This document shows positions 32,850-41,776 of a stretch of 44,366 bases of DNA, in pieces. The number at the start of each line of letters is the position of its first letter. Position 1 is the first letter of the stretch. Position numbers and translations under genes: made by a program. The notes below the pieces were generated by a model. The model was not told where the DNA came from. It was given only the letters and a program-made list of their open reading frames with translations, and did not search any database. The stretch lies in assembly GCA_016928095.1 (NCBI GenBank), contig JAFGLL010000069.1, positions 1 through 44,366 of the forward strand. The letters run 5' to 3'. This DNA is from Thermoplasmatota archaeon (GTDB lineage Archaea > Thermoplasmatota > Penumbrarchaeia > Penumbrarchaeales > Penumbrarchaeaceae).

Positions 32850-33530
32850 ATGAGCAGGCCTTTCGTGCATATCAACTGCGCTTCCTCCTTGGACGGTAAG
32901 ATAGCAGCACCCGACGGTTCAAGACTGCGAATATCCGGACCTTGGGATATCGAGAGGGTCCACAGACTGAGGGCGGAGATGGGTGCTATACTGGTAGGGG
33001 CTGGCACGATCATTGCGGACGATCCGAAGCTGATGGTCAAGGAAGAGGTAGTCAGGAACGCACCTCCGCTGACAAAGATCATACTGGATGGTAATGGCAG
33101 GATCCCCATGAAGGCCCGCTTCCTCAGGACCCCCGGCCGCTCGCTGATAGTGACATCTACCGGATGTGACGAACATTGGCATAACGGGATGCTGGAAGAA
33201 GCTGCACGGGAAGGGCTTGACCTATCAATATTGGAGATAGAGGCCTTCGGGAGCAGGTTCGACGTCTCCATGGCGCTTACCGCCATTCATGACGAGGGGG
33301 TGGAGAGCATCCTTGTGGAAGGGGGCTCCAATGTCATCCGTGAGTTCGTTGGCCGGGGTTCTTACGATCGGTTCACCATCTATTTCGGACCGATGCTGGT
33401 GGGGGGCAGAGGGCCGTCCATTATGGATGAGGCGGTATTGGCCACCTCCCCCCAAAGGATCGAGATAATAAGCGCGGAGATGACACCGGACGGAGGTATC
33501 ATCGTGGAGCTTGCTGGCCCGGGTCAATGA
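32850..33530 (+). CDS. 2,5-diamino-6-ribosylamino-pyrimidinone phosphate reductase (RibD C-terminal family)
   Basis: A 226-residue dihydrofolate-reductase-fold enzyme of archaeal riboflavin synthesis, which reduces the ribose side chain of the diaminopyrimidinone with NAD(P)H. Seen motifs: VHINCASSLDGKIA at the start, GAILVGAGTIIADDPKL near residue 47-63, PLTKIILDGNGRIP, and SILVEGGSNVIREFV near 160, the cofactor-binding loop. This matches the RibD C-terminal (RED) family, here without a deaminase domain, as in archaea and fungi. ATG 32850 is chosen because upstream residues to 32808 are unlike the family. Its end overlaps the dnaJ gene by seven bases, convergent. Confidence 0.9.
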   Translation: MSRPFVHINCASSLDGKIAAPDGSRLRISGPWDIERVHRLRAEMGAILVGAGTIIADDPKLMVKEEVVRNAPPLTKIILDGNGRIPMKARFLRTPGRSLIVTSTGCDEHWHNGMLEEAAREGLDLSILEIEAFGSRFDVSMALTAIHDEGVESILVEGGSNVIREFVGRGSYDRFTIYFGPMLVGGRGPSIMDEAVLATSPQRIEIISAEMTPDGGIIVELAGPGQ

Positions 33531-34642
33531 TCGAACTTCGTCCTATCGCCCATCAGTTCGGAGAGTTTCTTTATTACCTTTCTCTCACGGATCCCGGGGT
33601 GTTTTGGGACCTCCACATTGACATTGACGAAGAGATCACCAGTCCTTCTTCCCCTCAGATTGGGCATTCCCTTGCCTTTTATCCGCAAAGTGCTGTTGGG
33701 CTGGGTACCCGAGGGGATCTTCACCTCCACAGGGCCCTGAAGGGTTCCGATCTCCACCTTCGTTCCCAGCACCGCCTGAGGATACGTGATCGTGATATTG
33801 CACCTGACATCATCCCCTTTCCTCTCGAAGAAAGGGTGTGGCCTGACCTCCACTGCGACATAGAGGTCCCCAGGGGGGCCACTTTTCTCGCCCGAGTCCC
33901 CCAGACCTGCGACCCTGAGTCTGTTGCCGGTCTCCACCCCCGGAGGGATGTTCACGGATTTCATCACCCTCTCCCGTACCTTCTTCTTCCCCCTGCACTT
34001 CGTGCACGGGTCCTTGACGATCTGACCCTCGCCATTGCACCTCTGGCATGTCTTGGTGGTCACGTACTGGACCGGTCCGAGGTTCTTCACGATGCGCATG
34101 CTCCCGGTGCCGTTGCATTCGGGGCATTCTATCGGATCCTCTCCCTGGGCCGATCCGGACCCATTACATACCGGGCAGCTTATCAGATGGACTATCTCGA
34201 TCTCCTTCTCGACACCGTTGGCGGCATCCTCCAGGGTGATACGGACAGAGGTCAGCCTGTCGTCCCCTTTCACCGGACCTCTGCCACGGTAGGACCTCTC
34301 CTCGAAGGGATCCCCTCCGCCAAAGAAGGACCCGAAACCACCGCCGAAGGACCGCATGAACATCCTCAGTGCTTCATCGAGGTCCACATGCTGATACTGA
34401 TAGTTGGGCATCTCTCCTTCATCGGTTGCGAACCCGTACTGGTCGTACTGTGCCCTCTTGTCATCGTCAGATAGCACCTCATAGGCCTCTGTGACCTCGG
34501 TGAACTTCTTGGCAGCAGAAGGATCATCCGGATTCCTGTCCGGGTGGAATTTCAATGCCAGCTTGCGATAGGCCTTCTCGACATCAGCCTTTGGTGCATC
34601 CTTCGATACACCGAGTATCTCATAGTAGTCCTTCTTCATCAT
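33524..34642 (-). CDS. dnaJ: chaperone DnaJ (class A Hsp40)
   Basis: A 372-residue co-chaperone that delivers clients to DnaK and stimulates its ATPase. The J domain (3-70) has the HPD at 33-35; a Gly/Phe region follows (residues 90-110, FGGGFGSFFGGG). Four CxxCxGxG-type zinc motifs run from about 145: CPVCNGSG, CPECNGTG, CQRCNGEG and CTKCRGKK; the last is slightly off the consensus. The C-terminal substrate domain is complete. This is the bacterial-type class A layout, normal in archaea with a DnaK system. Third gene of grpE-dnaK-dnaJ, but separated from dnaK by a terminator-like hairpin, and its ribosome site is weak, so its expression may be set lower. Confidence 0.97.
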   Translation of the reverse strand: MMKKDYYEILGVSKDAPKADVEKAYRKLALKFHPDRNPDDPSAAKKFTEVTEAYEVLSDDDKRAQYDQYGFATDEGEMPNYQYQHVDLDEALRMFMRSFGGGFGSFFGGGDPFEERSYRGRGPVKGDDRLTSVRITLEDAANGVEKEIEIVHLISCPVCNGSGSAQGEDPIECPECNGTGSMRIVKNLGPVQYVTTKTCQRCNGEGQIVKDPCTKCRGKKKVRERVMKSVNIPPGVETGNRLRVAGLGDSGEKSGPPGDLYVAVEVRPHPFFERKGDDVRCNITITYPQAVLGTKVEIGTLQGPVEVKIPSGTQPNSTLRIKGKGMPNLRGRRTGDLFVNVNVEVPKHPGIRERKVIKKLSELMGDRTKFDH

Positions 34643-34695: not shown

Positions 34696-36534
34696 TCACT
34701 TCTCCTCAGCCTCGACATCGATGTAGTCCTCGTCATCCTCTTTCTTGGTCGAGGGGGGCTCTTCTTCCTCCTCTTCCATGGGTGGCTTCTGGGACTTGGA
34801 TGCCTGCTGATACATCTGGGCAAAAAGCTTCTGGGAGGCTTCCGAGAGTTCTTCGGTCTTGGTCTTAATCTCATCCGGATCGTCGCCCTCCGCGATCTTT
34901 TCCAGCTCCTTCATCAGGGACTGCACTTTCTCGACCTCTGAAGCGTCGAGCTTGTCTCTGTGGTCCTTGATGGCACGCTCCGTCGAGAAGATGAGTGAGG
35001 TCGCTCCGTTCTTCGCCTCTGCCATTTCCAGTTTTTTCTTGTCGTCCTCTGCAAAACGGTCGGCATCATCCATCATCCTGTCGATATCCTTGTCCGATAG
35101 CGCTCCGGTTCCGGATACGATGATATCCTGGCTGTTGCCTGTTGCAAGGTCCTTTGCCGTCACATGCACGATGCCATTGGCATCTATCTCGAACGTGACC
35201 TCGATCTGAGGGATACCCCTTGGAGCAGGGGGGATCCCGGTCAGAGTGAACACCCCGAGGGTCTTATTGTCGGCGGCCATGGGCCTTTCTCCCTGAAGGA
35301 CATGTATCTCCACCTGGGGCTGATTGTCGGATGCGGTGGAGAATATCTTGGACTTCTTCGTTGGGATGGTGGTGTTACGGTTGATGATCTTGGTAAGCAC
35401 CCCTCCCAGGGTCTCGATCCCCAGTGAGAGCGGGGTCACATCAAGCAGTACCATATCCTTGCCTACCTCGCCGGAGAGCACACCCGCCTGGATAGCGGCC
35501 CCGATGGCCACACATTCATCCGGATTGATGTTCTTGGTAGGTTCCTTTTTCAAGACCTCATTGATCTTGCTCTGGACCATGGGGACCCTCGTGGACCCCC
35601 CGACGAGGAGGACCTTATCGATATCCTTGGGATCGAGCTTAGCATCCTTCATCGCCTGCTTGAGCGGTTTCATGGTCTTTTCGACCAGGTCATCTATCAG
35701 TGATTCGAAATTGGACCTTGTTAGCTCCATCTCGAGATGCAGAGGCCCGTCATCTCCCTGTGTGATGAACGGAATGGATATCTGGGTCGTTGGGGTCCCC
35801 GACAGCTCGATCTTTGCCTTCTCTCCGGCGTCCTTCATTCTCTGGACGGCCTGTCTGTCCTTAAGCAGGTCCACGCCGTGGCTCTTCTTGAACTCTTTTG
35901 CCATCCATTCCAGTATCCTCTGGTCGAAATCGTCTCCGCCCAGGTGGTTGTTCCCGGACGTCGATTTTACCTGGAAGACCCCATCCCCTATCTGCAGGAT
36001 GGAAACATCGAAAGTGCCACCGCCAAGATCGTACACCAGGATCGTCAGGTCCCCTTCCTTGTCAAGTCCATAGGCCAGGGCGGCGGCCGTGGGTTCATTT
36101 ATGATCCTCTTGACCTCCATGCCAGCGATCTTACCAGCATCCTTCGTGGCCTGCCGCTGAGCATCCTCGAAATATGCCGGGACCGTTATCACCGCTTCGG
36201 TGACCTTCTCTCCGAGATACGCCTCGGCGTCCTCCTTGAGCTTCTGGAGGACCATGGCGGAGATCTCCTGAGGAGTGTATTTCTTTCCCCCCATACTAAC
36301 CTTGGTCTGCTGCCCCATCTTCCTTTTGATGGAAGCGATGGTGTTGTCCGGGTTGGCAACAGCCTGCCTTTTTGCCAGCTCGCCAACAAGCCTCTCACCC
36401 TTTTTCGTAATACCGACAACGGAAGGTGTTGTTCGTGCGCCCTCCCTGTTCGGGATCACCACTGGCTGTCCGCCTTCCATGACCGCGACCACTGAGTTCG
36501 TGGTCCCAAGATCTATTCCTATTACTTTTCCCAT
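34696..36534 (-). CDS. dnaK: molecular chaperone DnaK (Hsp70)
   Basis: A 612-residue Hsp70. The ATPase domain opens [17 protein letters not shown] and has the phosphate-binding [15 protein letters not shown] and the motif [14 protein letters not shown]. The linker and substrate domain follow ([16 protein letters not shown], then the beta-sandwich), and a lid of helices runs to an acidic tail ending [11 protein letters not shown], as in bacterial DnaK. ATG 36534 follows GAGGTG by eight bases. It lies 21 bases after grpE and surely shares its transcript. DnaK is patchy in archaea and is thought to have come from bacteria; its presence here suits a mesophile or moderate thermophile. Confidence 0.98.
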
Positions 36535-36555: not shown

Positions 36556-37434
36556 TTATTTCCTGCATTTTGCCCTCTTATCGTGCCCGGTCCTTCCATC
36601 GGCCTCCTTCTGTGGCCTTTTATTGACGATGACCTGGGCAGGTCTGAGGGTCCGTCCTTTGTAAACATAACCGGTTTTGACCTCTTGAACTATGGTCTCA
36701 TCCTCGATGTCCTTTCTCTCCGAGAAACCAACGGCTTCATGATAGTAGGGATCGAAATGCTGACCTTCCGCTCCTACCTTTGAGATACCGATCCGCTGGA
36801 ACAGGTCGATCACCTGTTTTTCCACCATCTCTACACCTTTTCTCATCTGATCGAGCGCATTGCCCCTTCCTCCGGACCTCTCCATGGAATCCCTTGCATA
36901 TTTGAAGCTGTCCAATACATCGAACAATCCTCCGGCGAGCTCTTCGATCCTTCTGTCGGCGATGGTTTCCTTCTCTCCATCGTGCCTTCTTTTAAGGTTC
37001 TGAAAATCCCTCTGGAGGTAGGAAACCCTATCCTCTAGCGATGTTCTTTCCGCGATGGTCCTTGTCAGCTCGATACGGAGCACTTCCATTTCCTTTTCCA
37101 TTTGTTGTATGGACGTGTCCACAGGGGTTATCACCGGAACGCACCTCTCCCCCTCGTGCAGAACATCATCCTGTTTCCTGGTGATCATGATCTCCAGGAC
37201 CCCCTGCGAGAACGTCACGGAGATGCCGTCCGGATCCGGTTCGAAAGGGAGTGCCTGGATTGTGCTGAACCTGCCCCGAACCCCATCCGCTTCGAGCTTG
37301 AGGATATCCTTGGACACGGCTATCCTTATCGCATCCTGGGCAACCCCTGGAAGTTCCACCGTGACCCTGGCACCTTCCGGGGTCTCCATCACTTCAGTGG
37401 TCGGTTCTCGCTCTTTGGGGTCCTTTCCGGCCAT
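36556..37434 (-). CDS. grpE: GrpE nucleotide-exchange factor fused to N-terminal Hsp20 domain
   Basis: A 292-residue protein, well above the usual 170-210 of GrpE. Residues about 12-87 read as an alpha-crystallin (Hsp20) domain: a first strand ARVTVELPGVAQDAIRIAV, then DILKLEAD, a FEPDPDGISVTF strand and SQGVLEIMITRK, which carries the conserved G-V-L. From about 108 a long coiled coil (EMEVLRIELTRTIAERTSLE) leads into the GrpE four-helix bundle (FDVLDSFKYARDSMERS), and the beta head ends with GYVYKGRTLRPAQVIVNK at about 255-272. GrpE releases ADP from DnaK; the Hsp20 domain could hold unfolded clients next to it. First gene of the operon; ATG 37434 after GGAAGG. Confidence 0.92.
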   Translation of the reverse strand: MAGKDPKEREPTTEVMETPEGARVTVELPGVAQDAIRIAVSKDILKLEADGVRGRFSTIQALPFEPDPDGISVTFSQGVLEIMITRKQDDVLHEGERCVPVITPVDTSIQQMEKEMEVLRIELTRTIAERTSLEDRVSYLQRDFQNLKRRHDGEKETIADRRIEELAGGLFDVLDSFKYARDSMERSGGRGNALDQMRKGVEMVEKQVIDLFQRIGISKVGAEGQHFDPYYHEAVGFSERKDIEDETIVQEVKTGYVYKGRTLRPAQVIVNKRPQKEADGRTGHDKRAKCRK

Positions 37435-37453: not shown

Positions 37454-37468
37454 ACAACTTCAAGTTGT
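37454..37468. promoter_or_regulatory. perfect palindrome, possible operator of the grpE-dnaK-dnaJ operon
   Basis: ACAACTT, one base, AAGTTGT: a seven-plus-seven perfect inverted repeat. It lies within the leader of grpE, 20 bases before the ATG and just downstream of the transcript start predicted from the TATA box. That place fits a repressor that blocks elongation or initiation. Confidence 0.6.
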
Positions 37469-37494: not shown

Positions 37495-37509
37495 GGATAT
37501 ATTTAATCC
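37495..37509 (-). promoter_or_regulatory. TATA-like box of the chaperone operon
   Basis: GGATTAAATATATCC on the minus strand, centred about 68 bases before ATG 37434, predicts a transcript start near 37476. The box itself is partly palindromic. The leader of about 42 bases contains the inverted repeat at 37454-37468. Confidence 0.55.
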
Positions 37510-38242: not shown

Positions 38243-38302
38243 CCAGGTCAATTTATGTACAGGGCCTGTTCAGGGCAGTTACTGTTCGGCAACGGTGATA
38301 TC

Positions 38303-41300
38303 ATGCACACCAACGTTTTCAATTCATGGGTCCTTATGATCGCTATCGTGTCTCTTTTCATCGTACCCCAGCAGTATCCATTCTCCGTGGATGCTGCGGA
38401 GTCCGTACTCCCTGCCGGATACGAATCCGTTTCTTATGAGGATATGACACCCGTGGACAAGGTCACACTAATCAATTACGACCGGGAGGGGATCGGGGAC
38501 GATCTCGCATTCCTAGCGGCCGTACCCGCTTCCGTGTTCAGGTCCGAAGCCGATGGTAGGGTCTTCATGAACCCGGTCATCTTCTACGAGCCTCCCAGGG
38601 AAACCTCGGATGAGGAGAAGGTACAGGACACCTATCCTGCAATTTCCTACCTCATGGAAGACCTTATGACGATCTCGGATGGTGAGCTCGATCGGATAGA
38701 GCTCATCGGGTTCAACGGGGCCTTCCCGGGAGACCTGGGGAACGATTGGAAGGCTTCAGATATCATTTCGATGGACGCCAGCGACCCGTTCGAGACCGCT
38801 ACCATGATCGCCCTGTCGAACTGGGAATGGTCCGACGAGGCGGTGATCGCAGTGGTGGACCCTGACCCTGAGGATATCGACGAGAAGATGGCCGGACAGG
38901 TTTCGGGAAGGACACCATCCTCCTCTCCACGTTCGGGTTCCGCGACCGGGGAGAAGGAGCCATCACCTGTTGATCCAAACACACACAGCTTCACTGTCGA
39001 GCCTGACTACAAGTATATAACTTCCCAGCTGACATGGGGTCAGGACTGGAACCCGCTCTCCGAGATAACCGAAAGGGGGAAGGACCCGGACCTTCAGCTC
39101 TATGACATGCAGCTGGGTATGGTGGGTGCCAGCGAGAAATGGAACGTTCTCGAAGGCGCTTCGGAAGAGATAGATTCTTACATCTACCACTCCGGGGAGT
39201 GGGAGTTCGCGGTCACATACATGCCGACGGAGAACTCACTTGTCCATGATGACGAACCGGACAGTTGGAATTCTGTTCCCTATCCCTCCCAGGTCACACC
39301 TCTCGAGAGGGAGGAATGGAAGAAGGACAGGATAAGGACGGTCATGGACGAGAGAGAGGAGAAGGGGCTCGATCCCGATGCACCTTTCGGTTCGGGGATC
39401 ACATATACGATAGATTACACCCTGTATCCGGGCATCGACGTGCCCACCCTTATCGAGACACCTTTTTACTGCAGGGATGCCAAGTTCACCCTGGAATGGT
39501 CGGACAGCAGCGCCGATCTTGGCCTCATCCTCAGAGGCCCGGAAGGGGCAGAGATAGCTGTAGCCGCAGGCTCGACCTCGGGCAATACACAGGTGCTCGA
39601 GATACCGGAACTGGGTCAGGGGGAGTATCAGGTATCGGTCGTCAATCTCGCCGGGTCCGGGACCGACTTCACTGTCAAATACGAGTTCTCACAGAAAAAG
39701 GAGCTCCGTGAAGGGACCGGCTGGGCCGGGGCCGCCAACGCTGCCGTGATAGCATCCGGGATGAATGCACCCCTGATGTTCGCGTCGTCGAAGGGATTGT
39801 CCGAAAAGACCGGGAAGGCGATCAACACGTTGGGTGTGGGGAAGGTCATCGTCGTGGACATCGATGGACACGCGGGAGACAGGGTTTACAGGGATATCGG
39901 GTCGCTTCGAGGTTTCCTGAGGAAGGAGATCGAGGTGGAGAAGCTTACGGATGTCGAAGATGTGTATGACAAGGTGAAGGAGGTCGTGGATTATGACGGT
40001 GACAGGTCCGGAGATGTCGTATTCACGACCATCAATCCCTGGACATCATGGAACGTCATCGTTGAAAGGGATACTTCGATCAACCCGAAGGGGGAATATC
40101 CCGGTGCGTTGTTCATCGGACCGGCCGCGCTGGCAGCAGCGTATCACGGAGCACCGGTATTGGTCACCGATATCCATTCCGAGCTTTCCTGTGCCCAGGC
40201 TTGGCATAATGAGTTCTGGGTCTATGCATATCATAACAGCAGAGCGCCGCCATCCGTTGCCTGTATGGTGCTGACAGCAAAGAGCACCTATAAGGTGCTC
40301 GACCGGTACGGTTTCGATAAAAGGACACCTGTGAACGAGGAGGGAAAGCACAAGGAGAGCATCATCACCGTTGCTGACCAGTTCGACATTGGTTCATCAT
40401 GGGACCGGGGGTTGGTCGGCGGGGCGGATTCCGGACGGATCATGGGAACTCCTGTGGACACTGCGGTATGGATCTCACGTAATGGCCTCTACCCGAAATT
40501 GATCTACGCAAACCCTGCCGTGGACAGTTCCCTTGACGAGACCGGTGGGATGAGGATCCAGGGGTCCGAATCCACGCGGGGGCTTTCAGGCCGTCTCGTG
40601 ATAACGACCCCGGAAAGGGAGGAAGAGGTCGATTTCCCTGTCACCATGACCTGGGTCTCCTATCAATACAAGTTCAACGAGCAGGCCTCTGAATACTGGG
40701 GATGCCCCTACACGACCAGGACCGGTATAACTCCGTATTTCGACATGTCCGATGCAAGCAGCGACCCCGACGGAATAGATCCGGAAGGGAGGTATCCAGA
40801 CCTTGATTCGTCAGAGATCATTCCGGCCTATATCGAGGCCTGCGGATACGGAACGGTATATTCGACGACCTTCGAGAAGACCATTGAGAACCTCAACCGG
40901 GGAACCATCCTGTGGCTGGAAGTGATGCACGGAGGACATACGAACTCCGGCGTGGTCGGCTGGTGGGATGAGAGGGGGGCTTCCGAAGCGAACCCATGGA
41001 GAGGATACGAGGAGACAGGCTTACCGGTCGGTACATCTACCCAGGTCCTGAGAGGTTCGACCAGCGATCCAGACGTTGTCACCATGTCCAAGCATGTTGG
41101 TTTGGACATAACACCGGGTTTCGGACCCATAACCGACATCGGGGTCGTTCCGGAAAGGCACGATGGAGTGGTCATAGCCATCGCGCAGCAGAGCCAGACC
41201 GAATACAGCGAGGACGGTCTGGTCATGGACGATGCCCTGGAGAACCTGCATTCCATGGGCTTCTCGGCCGGTAGCTGTTTGATAGCCAACACCTACCTCC

Positions 41301-41776
41301 ACCTGATGCTGGTAAGACACGGTTCCATCTTCCAGGTCATCGATCCCTGGTTGACATCCTGGTACTCCGCATTTGCCATGAACATGTTCGTTCGGGACAT
41401 CTACTACGACAGGACCGTGGGGGATGCGTTCGAGAGGGGGATATCACACGTCGGAATACAGTACCTGGTGGATGGATGGTGGTGGGATATCTTCGAGAAC
41501 CTGGTGTACTTCGGGGACCCGGACCTGAAGGTCTATTCCCCGAAGAACGACTGGCCAGAGCCGACATCCCTTCAGAAGGGGACTGTCATTCAAGGCCACT
41601 CCCCGTTCGGTTCCCGGGACCACCCGAATGCCACCAACACAGGCATCGTCTGGGATATCATGGCCTTCCTCGTGATCGCTGGTCTGGTAGGGGCCGGAGC
41701 CTATGTTTTTTACATGCAAAGGCGGGGTCAGGAGATACCATTCCTTCGGAAGATAACCAATAAAGTGAAGGCCTGA
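38303..41776 (+). CDS. C25-like (gingipain-like) membrane-anchored cysteine protease
   Basis: A 1157-residue protein. A signal segment (residues 8-27) leads to an external body. A beta-rich PPC-like domain lies at about 395-470 (LILRGPEGAEIAV, GEYQVSVVNLAGSG). Between about 480 and 1085 the pattern is that of clan CD peptidases of family C25: the strand-His motif LWLEVMHGGH (His876 and His879), the strand-Cys motif SAGSC with Cys992, and the typical ending FGDPDLKVYSP. A membrane segment at about 1113-1137 and a basic tail anchor it. C25 enzymes cut after Arg or Lys in the best-known members; specificity here is unknown. ATG 38303 follows GGTGAT. It probably matures or degrades surface proteins. 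Confidence 0.82.
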   Translation: MHTNVFNSWVLMIAIVSLFIVPQQYPFSVDAAESVLPAGYESVSYEDMTPVDKVTLINYDREGIGDDLAFLAAVPASVFRSEADGRVFMNPVIFYEPPRETSDEEKVQDTYPAISYLMEDLMTISDGELDRIELIGFNGAFPGDLGNDWKASDIISMDASDPFETATMIALSNWEWSDEAVIAVVDPDPEDIDEKMAGQVSGRTPSSSPRSGSATGEKEPSPVDPNTHSFTVEPDYKYITSQLTWGQDWNPLSEITERGKDPDLQLYDMQLGMVGASEKWNVLEGASEEIDSYIYHSGEWEFAVTYMPTENSLVHDDEPDSWNSVPYPSQVTPLEREEWKKDRIRTVMDEREEKGLDPDAPFGSGITYTIDYTLYPGIDVPTLIETPFYCRDAKFTLEWSDSSADLGLILRGPEGAEIAVAAGSTSGNTQVLEIPELGQGEYQVSVVNLAGSGTDFTVKYEFSQKKELREGTGWAGAANAAVIASGMNAPLMFASSKGLSEKTGKAINTLGVGKVIVVDIDGHAGDRVYRDIGSLRGFLRKEIEVEKLTDVEDVYDKVKEVVDYDGDRSGDVVFTTINPWTSWNVIVERDTSINPKGEYPGALFIGPAALAAAYHGAPVLVTDIHSELSCAQAWHNEFWVYAYHNSRAPPSVACMVLTAKSTYKVLDRYGFDKRTPVNEEGKHKESIITVADQFDIGSSWDRGLVGGADSGRIMGTPVDTAVWISRNGLYPKLIYANPAVDSSLDETGGMRIQGSESTRGLSGRLVITTPEREEEVDFPVTMTWVSYQYKFNEQASEYWGCPYTTRTGITPYFDMSDASSDPDGIDPEGRYPDLDSSEIIPAYIEACGYGTVYSTTFEKTIENLNRGTILWLEVMHGGHTNSGVVGWWDERGASEANPWRGYEETGLPVGTSTQVLRGSTSDPDVVTMSKHVGLDITPGFGPITDIGVVPERHDGVVIAIAQQSQTEYSEDGLVMDDALENLHSMGFSAGSCLIANTYLHLMLVRHGSIFQVIDPWLTSWYSAFAMNMFVRDIYYDRTVGDAFERGISHVGIQYLVDGWWWDIFENLVYFGDPDLKVYSPKNDWPEPTSLQKGTVIQGHSPFGSRDHPNATNTGIVWDIMAFLVIAGLVGAGAYVFYMQRRGQEIPFLRKITNKVKA

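Follow-up and report, generated by a model that had tools for sequence, protein, structure and literature searches.

Hsp20 domains grip unfolding proteins and GrpE resets the DnaK folding machine; the two are normally separate heat-shock proteins, and the N-terminus of GrpE is usually a disordered tail. The locus described here, from a Thermoplasmatota archaeon, raises the question of whether one gene can carry both activities, and whether client holding is thereby coupled to nucleotide exchange. The window, i.e. the whole stretch of DNA that was analysed, is 44,366 nucleotides long, and the gene concerned lies on its minus strand at 36556..37434, encoding 292 amino acids from an ATG start with no internal stop. 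Our best overall explanation, to which we assign a probability of about 0.62, is that the product is a heat-inducible GrpE with an Hsp20.1-type domain, which would hold clients near DnaK and favour their hand-over.

Domains and predicted fold of the fused protein

The gene encodes an Hsp20/alpha-crystallin domain, a short disordered linker and a complete GrpE. The Hsp20 part (residues 8-88; 37171..37413, minus strand) is of a short type lacking the beta-6 loop. Pfam HSP20 (PF00011) matches residues 15-96 with 25.3 bits (cut-off 20.8), a score that is modest because the sub-type is archaeal: positions 70-151 of NCBIfam NF041800, 'archaeal heat shock protein Hsp20', align with residues 7-88 at an E-value of 8.7e-15. 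When the N-terminal 96 amino acids were compared with the PDB using phmmer, the nearest Hsp20 chain was 4rzk, Hsp20.1 of Sulfolobus solfataricus (2e-6). Seven of the nine fused members tested match Pfam HSP20; the very divergent copies of families f2 and f4 did not reach it on their own. The GrpE part (36619..37119, minus strand) comprises a long helix (106-186), a second helix (192-215) and a beta head (217-271), and PF01025 matches residues 110-272 with 132 bits (cut-off 25.8) over profile positions 7-165 of 165. Between them lies a flexible linker (residues 89-105; 37120..37170, minus strand) containing the hydrophobic V-x-V-type motif CVPVITPV.

AlphaFold prediction from the single sequence was too poor for use (pLDDT 49), and an alignment of 52 rows (fused proteins, free Hsp20s and GrpEs from the window and the fetched loci) yielded a model with a mean pLDDT of 90.5. 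In this model residues 13-86 form a seven-stranded beta-sandwich (pLDDT 95-98), residues 91-103 of the linker are disordered (pLDDT <50), and the GrpE helices and the strands of the beta head all exceed a pLDDT of 90. Its pTM is 0.58, and the orientation of the Hsp20 part relative to GrpE is not fixed by the model. Foldseek against the PDB matched the Hsp20 part to the S. solfataricus Hsp20.1 domain (TM 0.88, target-normalised; rmsd 1.2 Å; 84 columns) and the GrpE part to 1dkg, 4ani, 9bls and 9a81. Thus the earlier note, which had read the N-terminal ~90 residues as an alpha-crystallin domain in front of an intact GrpE, is borne out by two profile models, by the match to 4rzk and by the predicted fold. 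Neither of the outcomes that the note had named as refuting its reading, the lack of a beta-sandwich in residues 12-87 or of an Hsp20 profile match, was obtained.

Each fused protein has 13 residues from beta5 to beta7, as do the free archaeal Hsp20s of the 'short' type, whereas the canonical Hsp20s encoded by these genomes have 29-35; the beta-6 loop is therefore absent from the fused Hsp20 part. This loop serves strand-swapped dimers. Judged from sequence, its absence is a trait of the Hsp20.1 type and not an effect of the fusion. Only about eight residues precede the domain, so that the variable N-terminal arm is missing and the fusion contains only the domain of an Hsp20 and not the entire protein. 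The free C-terminal I-x-I/V tail is absent as well, and in most members the linker carries a V-x-[VIL] motif (VPV, VKI, VTL or VDI). In Hsp20 proteins the I-x-I motif docks in a groove of the domain.

These features count against our explanation, since many small heat-shock proteins use the arm for clients, and the Hsp20 part might instead be a docking or regulatory module that binds other Hsp20 or ClpB partners or, together with the linker, tunes DnaK by mimicking a substrate or by sensing temperature. The lost arm, the lost free C-terminus and the absent beta-6 loop all speak for such a role, as does the linker motif, which is comparable to the motif 17-IIM-19 of Escherichia coli GrpE that enters the DnaK groove (PMC12915176). 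By analogy, the V-x-[VIL] motif might dock either in the Hsp20 groove, as I-x-I does, or in that of DnaK, as the E. coli motif does. However, Hsp20.1, the closest relative with a solved structure, acts as a dimer to protect its clients (PMC9133787), and we consider a purely docking or regulatory role rather unlikely, preferring a domain that holds clients.

Distribution, constraint and origin of the fused gene

Orthologues of the fusion were found in nine other genomes, and the reading frame is open in all ten. Within family f1 the fusion is present in eight of eight genomes (one copy is cut by a contig end); outside f1 in the same class it occurs in G009 (family f2) and G011 (family f4), one genome per family, and was not found in G008 and G010. 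The absence from these two genomes and the strong divergence of the f2 and f4 copies weigh against our explanation. A draw of 390 genomes of the phylum contained no other full fusion among the matches listed, and a search of named contigs with an alignment of the closer fused proteins found only known relatives; beyond its reach, distant and independent fusions may exist in other phyla. The named relatives are metagenome-assembled genomes, named 'Candidatus Thermoplasmatota archaeon', 'Thermoplasmata archaeon' or 'Thermoplasmatales archaeon'. Chimeras occur in such assemblies, and a contig of this kind, or an overlooked stop codon, could in principle produce an apparent fusion, but the nine orthologues, in frame and with a common operator and gene order, rule out an assembly or annotation artefact, the probability of which is negligible. 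Apparent fusions in two other genomes (G253 and G256) proved to be two separate adjacent genes each. Our search of the openly accessible literature found no description of an Hsp20-GrpE fusion.

The genome to which the window belongs has three GrpEs and two DnaKs (the DnaK of the window being listed there in two pieces), and only the GrpE in the window carries an Hsp20 part. A third GrpE paralogue of this genome and its relatives, at L070:3470-4465 (G000:C112) and also in L042, L046, L036, L044 and L040, has another unusual N-terminus, an HNH/zinc-finger-like domain with the motif RDEFTCxxCG ... SNLxTxCxxC (Pfam HNH in L042 at 0.008, below the cut-off). No dnaK adjoins this paralogue within the fetched stretch.

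In a comparison of G000 with G001, identity is 87% for the Hsp20 part (dN 0.08, dS 1.20), 67% for the GrpE part (dN 0.19, dS 1.02) and 52% for the fast-evolving linker. By these substitution rates, purifying selection acts more strongly on the Hsp20 part than on GrpE, and no other portion of the protein is as constrained as the Hsp20 part. Such constraint does not distinguish a docking module from a holdase. The fusion could also lack functional coupling altogether, merely delivering two heat-shock proteins in equal amounts from one start site with independent halves. The rapid evolution of the linker would suit such an arrangement, as would the unfused neighbours hsp20 and grpE of family f43, because they indicate that adjacency can precede fusion. 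However, no f1 genome has given up the fusion, and a free short-type hsp20 was seen among them in G004 only; the fusion always stands with dnaK; and two Hsp20 domains are necessarily brought together when GrpE dimerises. Independence of the halves is therefore improbable, and coupling is preferred.

Family f43 belongs to another branch of Thermoplasmatota, and in two of its genomes hsp20 (189 amino acids) and grpE (190-197 amino acids) are separate but adjacent genes in the same frame, 3 and 15 nucleotides apart. A thermosome gene precedes the short-type hsp20 and the adjoining grpE in both (L148:1483-2649 and L150:1474-2631). The f43 Hsp20 has the same short domain behind an N-terminal arm of ~100 amino acids, the motif leading the domain being REPLTDI there and REPTTEV in the fusion of the window. 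The fusion thus resembles such an hsp20-grpE pair minus arm and stop. The f43 tandem is likely to represent the pre-fusion state, from which an adjacent hsp20 would probably have lost its N-terminal arm and its stop codon and been read through into grpE. The GrpE tree does not place the f43 proteins as sisters of the fused ones, and the pair therefore serves as an illustration of the pre-fusion state rather than as a demonstrated direct ancestor. The f1 and f2 fusions form one clade (support 95/82); the f4 copy stands on a long branch elsewhere, and a single clade including it was not rejected (p-AU 0.089). A tree of the Hsp20 domain, which is short and long-branched, did not resolve the origin.

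The operon and a candidate heat-shock regulon

Directly downstream of the fusion lies dnaK (34696..36534, minus strand; 612 amino acids; Pfam HSP70, 1.6e-243), followed by dnaJ (33524..34642, minus strand; 372 amino acids), which encodes a J domain, a zinc domain and a C-terminal domain. Every fusion examined is directly followed by dnaK, and dnaJ comes next wherever the contig is long enough. Elsewhere in the window, positions 38255-41776 encode a predicted secreted protein of 1173 amino acids that matches no Pfam family and has a hydrophobic segment near its C-terminus.

A palindrome, ACAACTTCAAGTTGT (ACAAC-N5-GTTGT; 37454..37468, not strand-specific), is situated 19 nucleotides before the start codon of the fusion and immediately follows a probable TATA box of the operon (37497..37506, minus strand), which was read from the letters and is conserved in alignment A5. 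The half-sites are invariant in the seven genomes of that alignment. By chance, 0.6 sites within one mismatch are expected in a 44-kb window, and therefore the palindrome in the window alone proves nothing. The exact palindrome, however, precedes the fusion in eight genomes, the distant G011 among them, and is absent from all of the fetched paralogous grpE loci; it was not found upstream of the G009 fusion. G000 contains five exact copies, of which four precede the fusion, a free hsp20, clpB and a gene for an ArsR-type regulator, and the fifth is intragenic. Relatives of G000 show parts of the same palindrome-preceded gene set; marked loci of the Phr-like regulator, ClpB and free Hsp20 were seen at L121:4353-5158, L122:2724-5392 and L120:3698-4259.

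The ArsR-type regulator of G000 matches HTH_5, and the NCBIfam model that fits it best is that of the Phr heat-shock regulator (2.1e-13). It scores 50.3 against a strict cut-off of 320 bits for this model, and is therefore related to Phr but is not Phr itself. Phr represses the heat-shock genes of Pyrococcus via a palindrome (PMC10746257), and the HSR1 palindrome of Archaeoglobus fulgidus is CTAAC-N5-GTTAG (PMC9133787). The layout of a regulon of the Phr/HSR1 type is found here as well, with an ArsR-type winged-helix regulator under its own putative operator, further putative operators before heat-shock genes, and an N5-spaced palindrome like that of HSR1. In contrast to those systems, the half-sites of the candidate operator are ACAAC/GTTGT and the set includes grpE-dnaK-dnaJ and clpB. 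Thus, ACAAC-N5-GTTGT marks a candidate heat-shock regulon in Thermoplasmatota, and a predicted autoregulated heat-shock repressor would control the fusion operon. In family f2, two short-type hsp20 genes occur in tandem beside Cdc48-like AAA genes (L134:1-4176 and L135:1173-3858), with a Phr-like HTH gene near the tandem in L134.

Proposed function and comparison with known systems

In our explanation, an Hsp20.1-type alpha-crystallin domain takes the place of the disordered N-terminal tail of GrpE, and the fused protein would be encoded first in a grpE-dnaK-dnaJ operon that a Phr-like repressor controls, presumably with induction by heat. The GrpE half would dimerise via its long helices and exchange ADP on the neighbouring DnaK, and the two tethered Hsp20 domains would bind unfolding client segments beside the substrate-binding domain of DnaK. 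The local client concentration would then rise and transfer to DnaK would be favoured. Pairing of two Hsp20 domains by a GrpE dimer would suit domains of this sub-type, given that Hsp20.1 itself works as a dimer. The N-terminal tails of E. coli GrpE bind the substrate-binding site of DnaK (PMC12915176). This published location, the order of dnaK and dnaJ, the shared operator and the selection on the Hsp20 part all fit the coupling of holding to nucleotide exchange that the earlier note had proposed. The fusion is conserved and heat-shock-associated, and coupling is the best-supported reading. Its domains, predicted fold, conservation, constraint, gene order and operator, together with the f43 tandem, are computational results, whereas heat induction, dimerisation, exchange activity on this DnaK, client binding and hand-over are inferred.

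The transfer of clients from small heat-shock proteins to Hsp70 is not yet settled, and work on it has relied on polydisperse partners that are not joined to each other. Here the two steps would be joined covalently by nature, within an operon of the heat-shock type; with a linker that can be cut, and relatives that keep an unfused pair for comparison, the hand-over would become directly testable. In this archaeal lineage, there may be a physical connection between holding damaged proteins and releasing them.

The fusion shares with GrpE (PF01025) the full profile, the long helices, the beta head and the adjoining dnaK and dnaJ, but its N-terminus is a folded Hsp20 domain instead of a disordered tail. 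With Sulfolobus Hsp20.1 (NF041800, PDB 4rzk) it has in common the alpha-crystallin domain and the short beta5-beta7 hairpin without a beta-6 loop; unlike Hsp20.1, the fused domain has neither an N-terminal arm nor a free C-terminal tail, and is tethered to GrpE. The closest functional parallel is eukaryotic Hsp110, which has been described as a holdase and a nucleotide exchange factor in one (PMC12987570). We tentatively suggest, as a possibility that falls short of even odds, that the fusion is a prokaryotic counterpart of Hsp110, i.e. a dimeric holdase and exchange factor in one chain made from a small heat-shock protein and GrpE, in which the GrpE dimer would pair the Hsp20 domains and clients would be presented directly to the DnaK being recharged. 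The resemblance to Hsp110/Grp170 would be functional; those proteins are built from an Hsp70 relative and have no sequence or fold relation to the fusion. If the suggestion is true, it would represent convergence with eukaryotic Hsp110 from unrelated parts.
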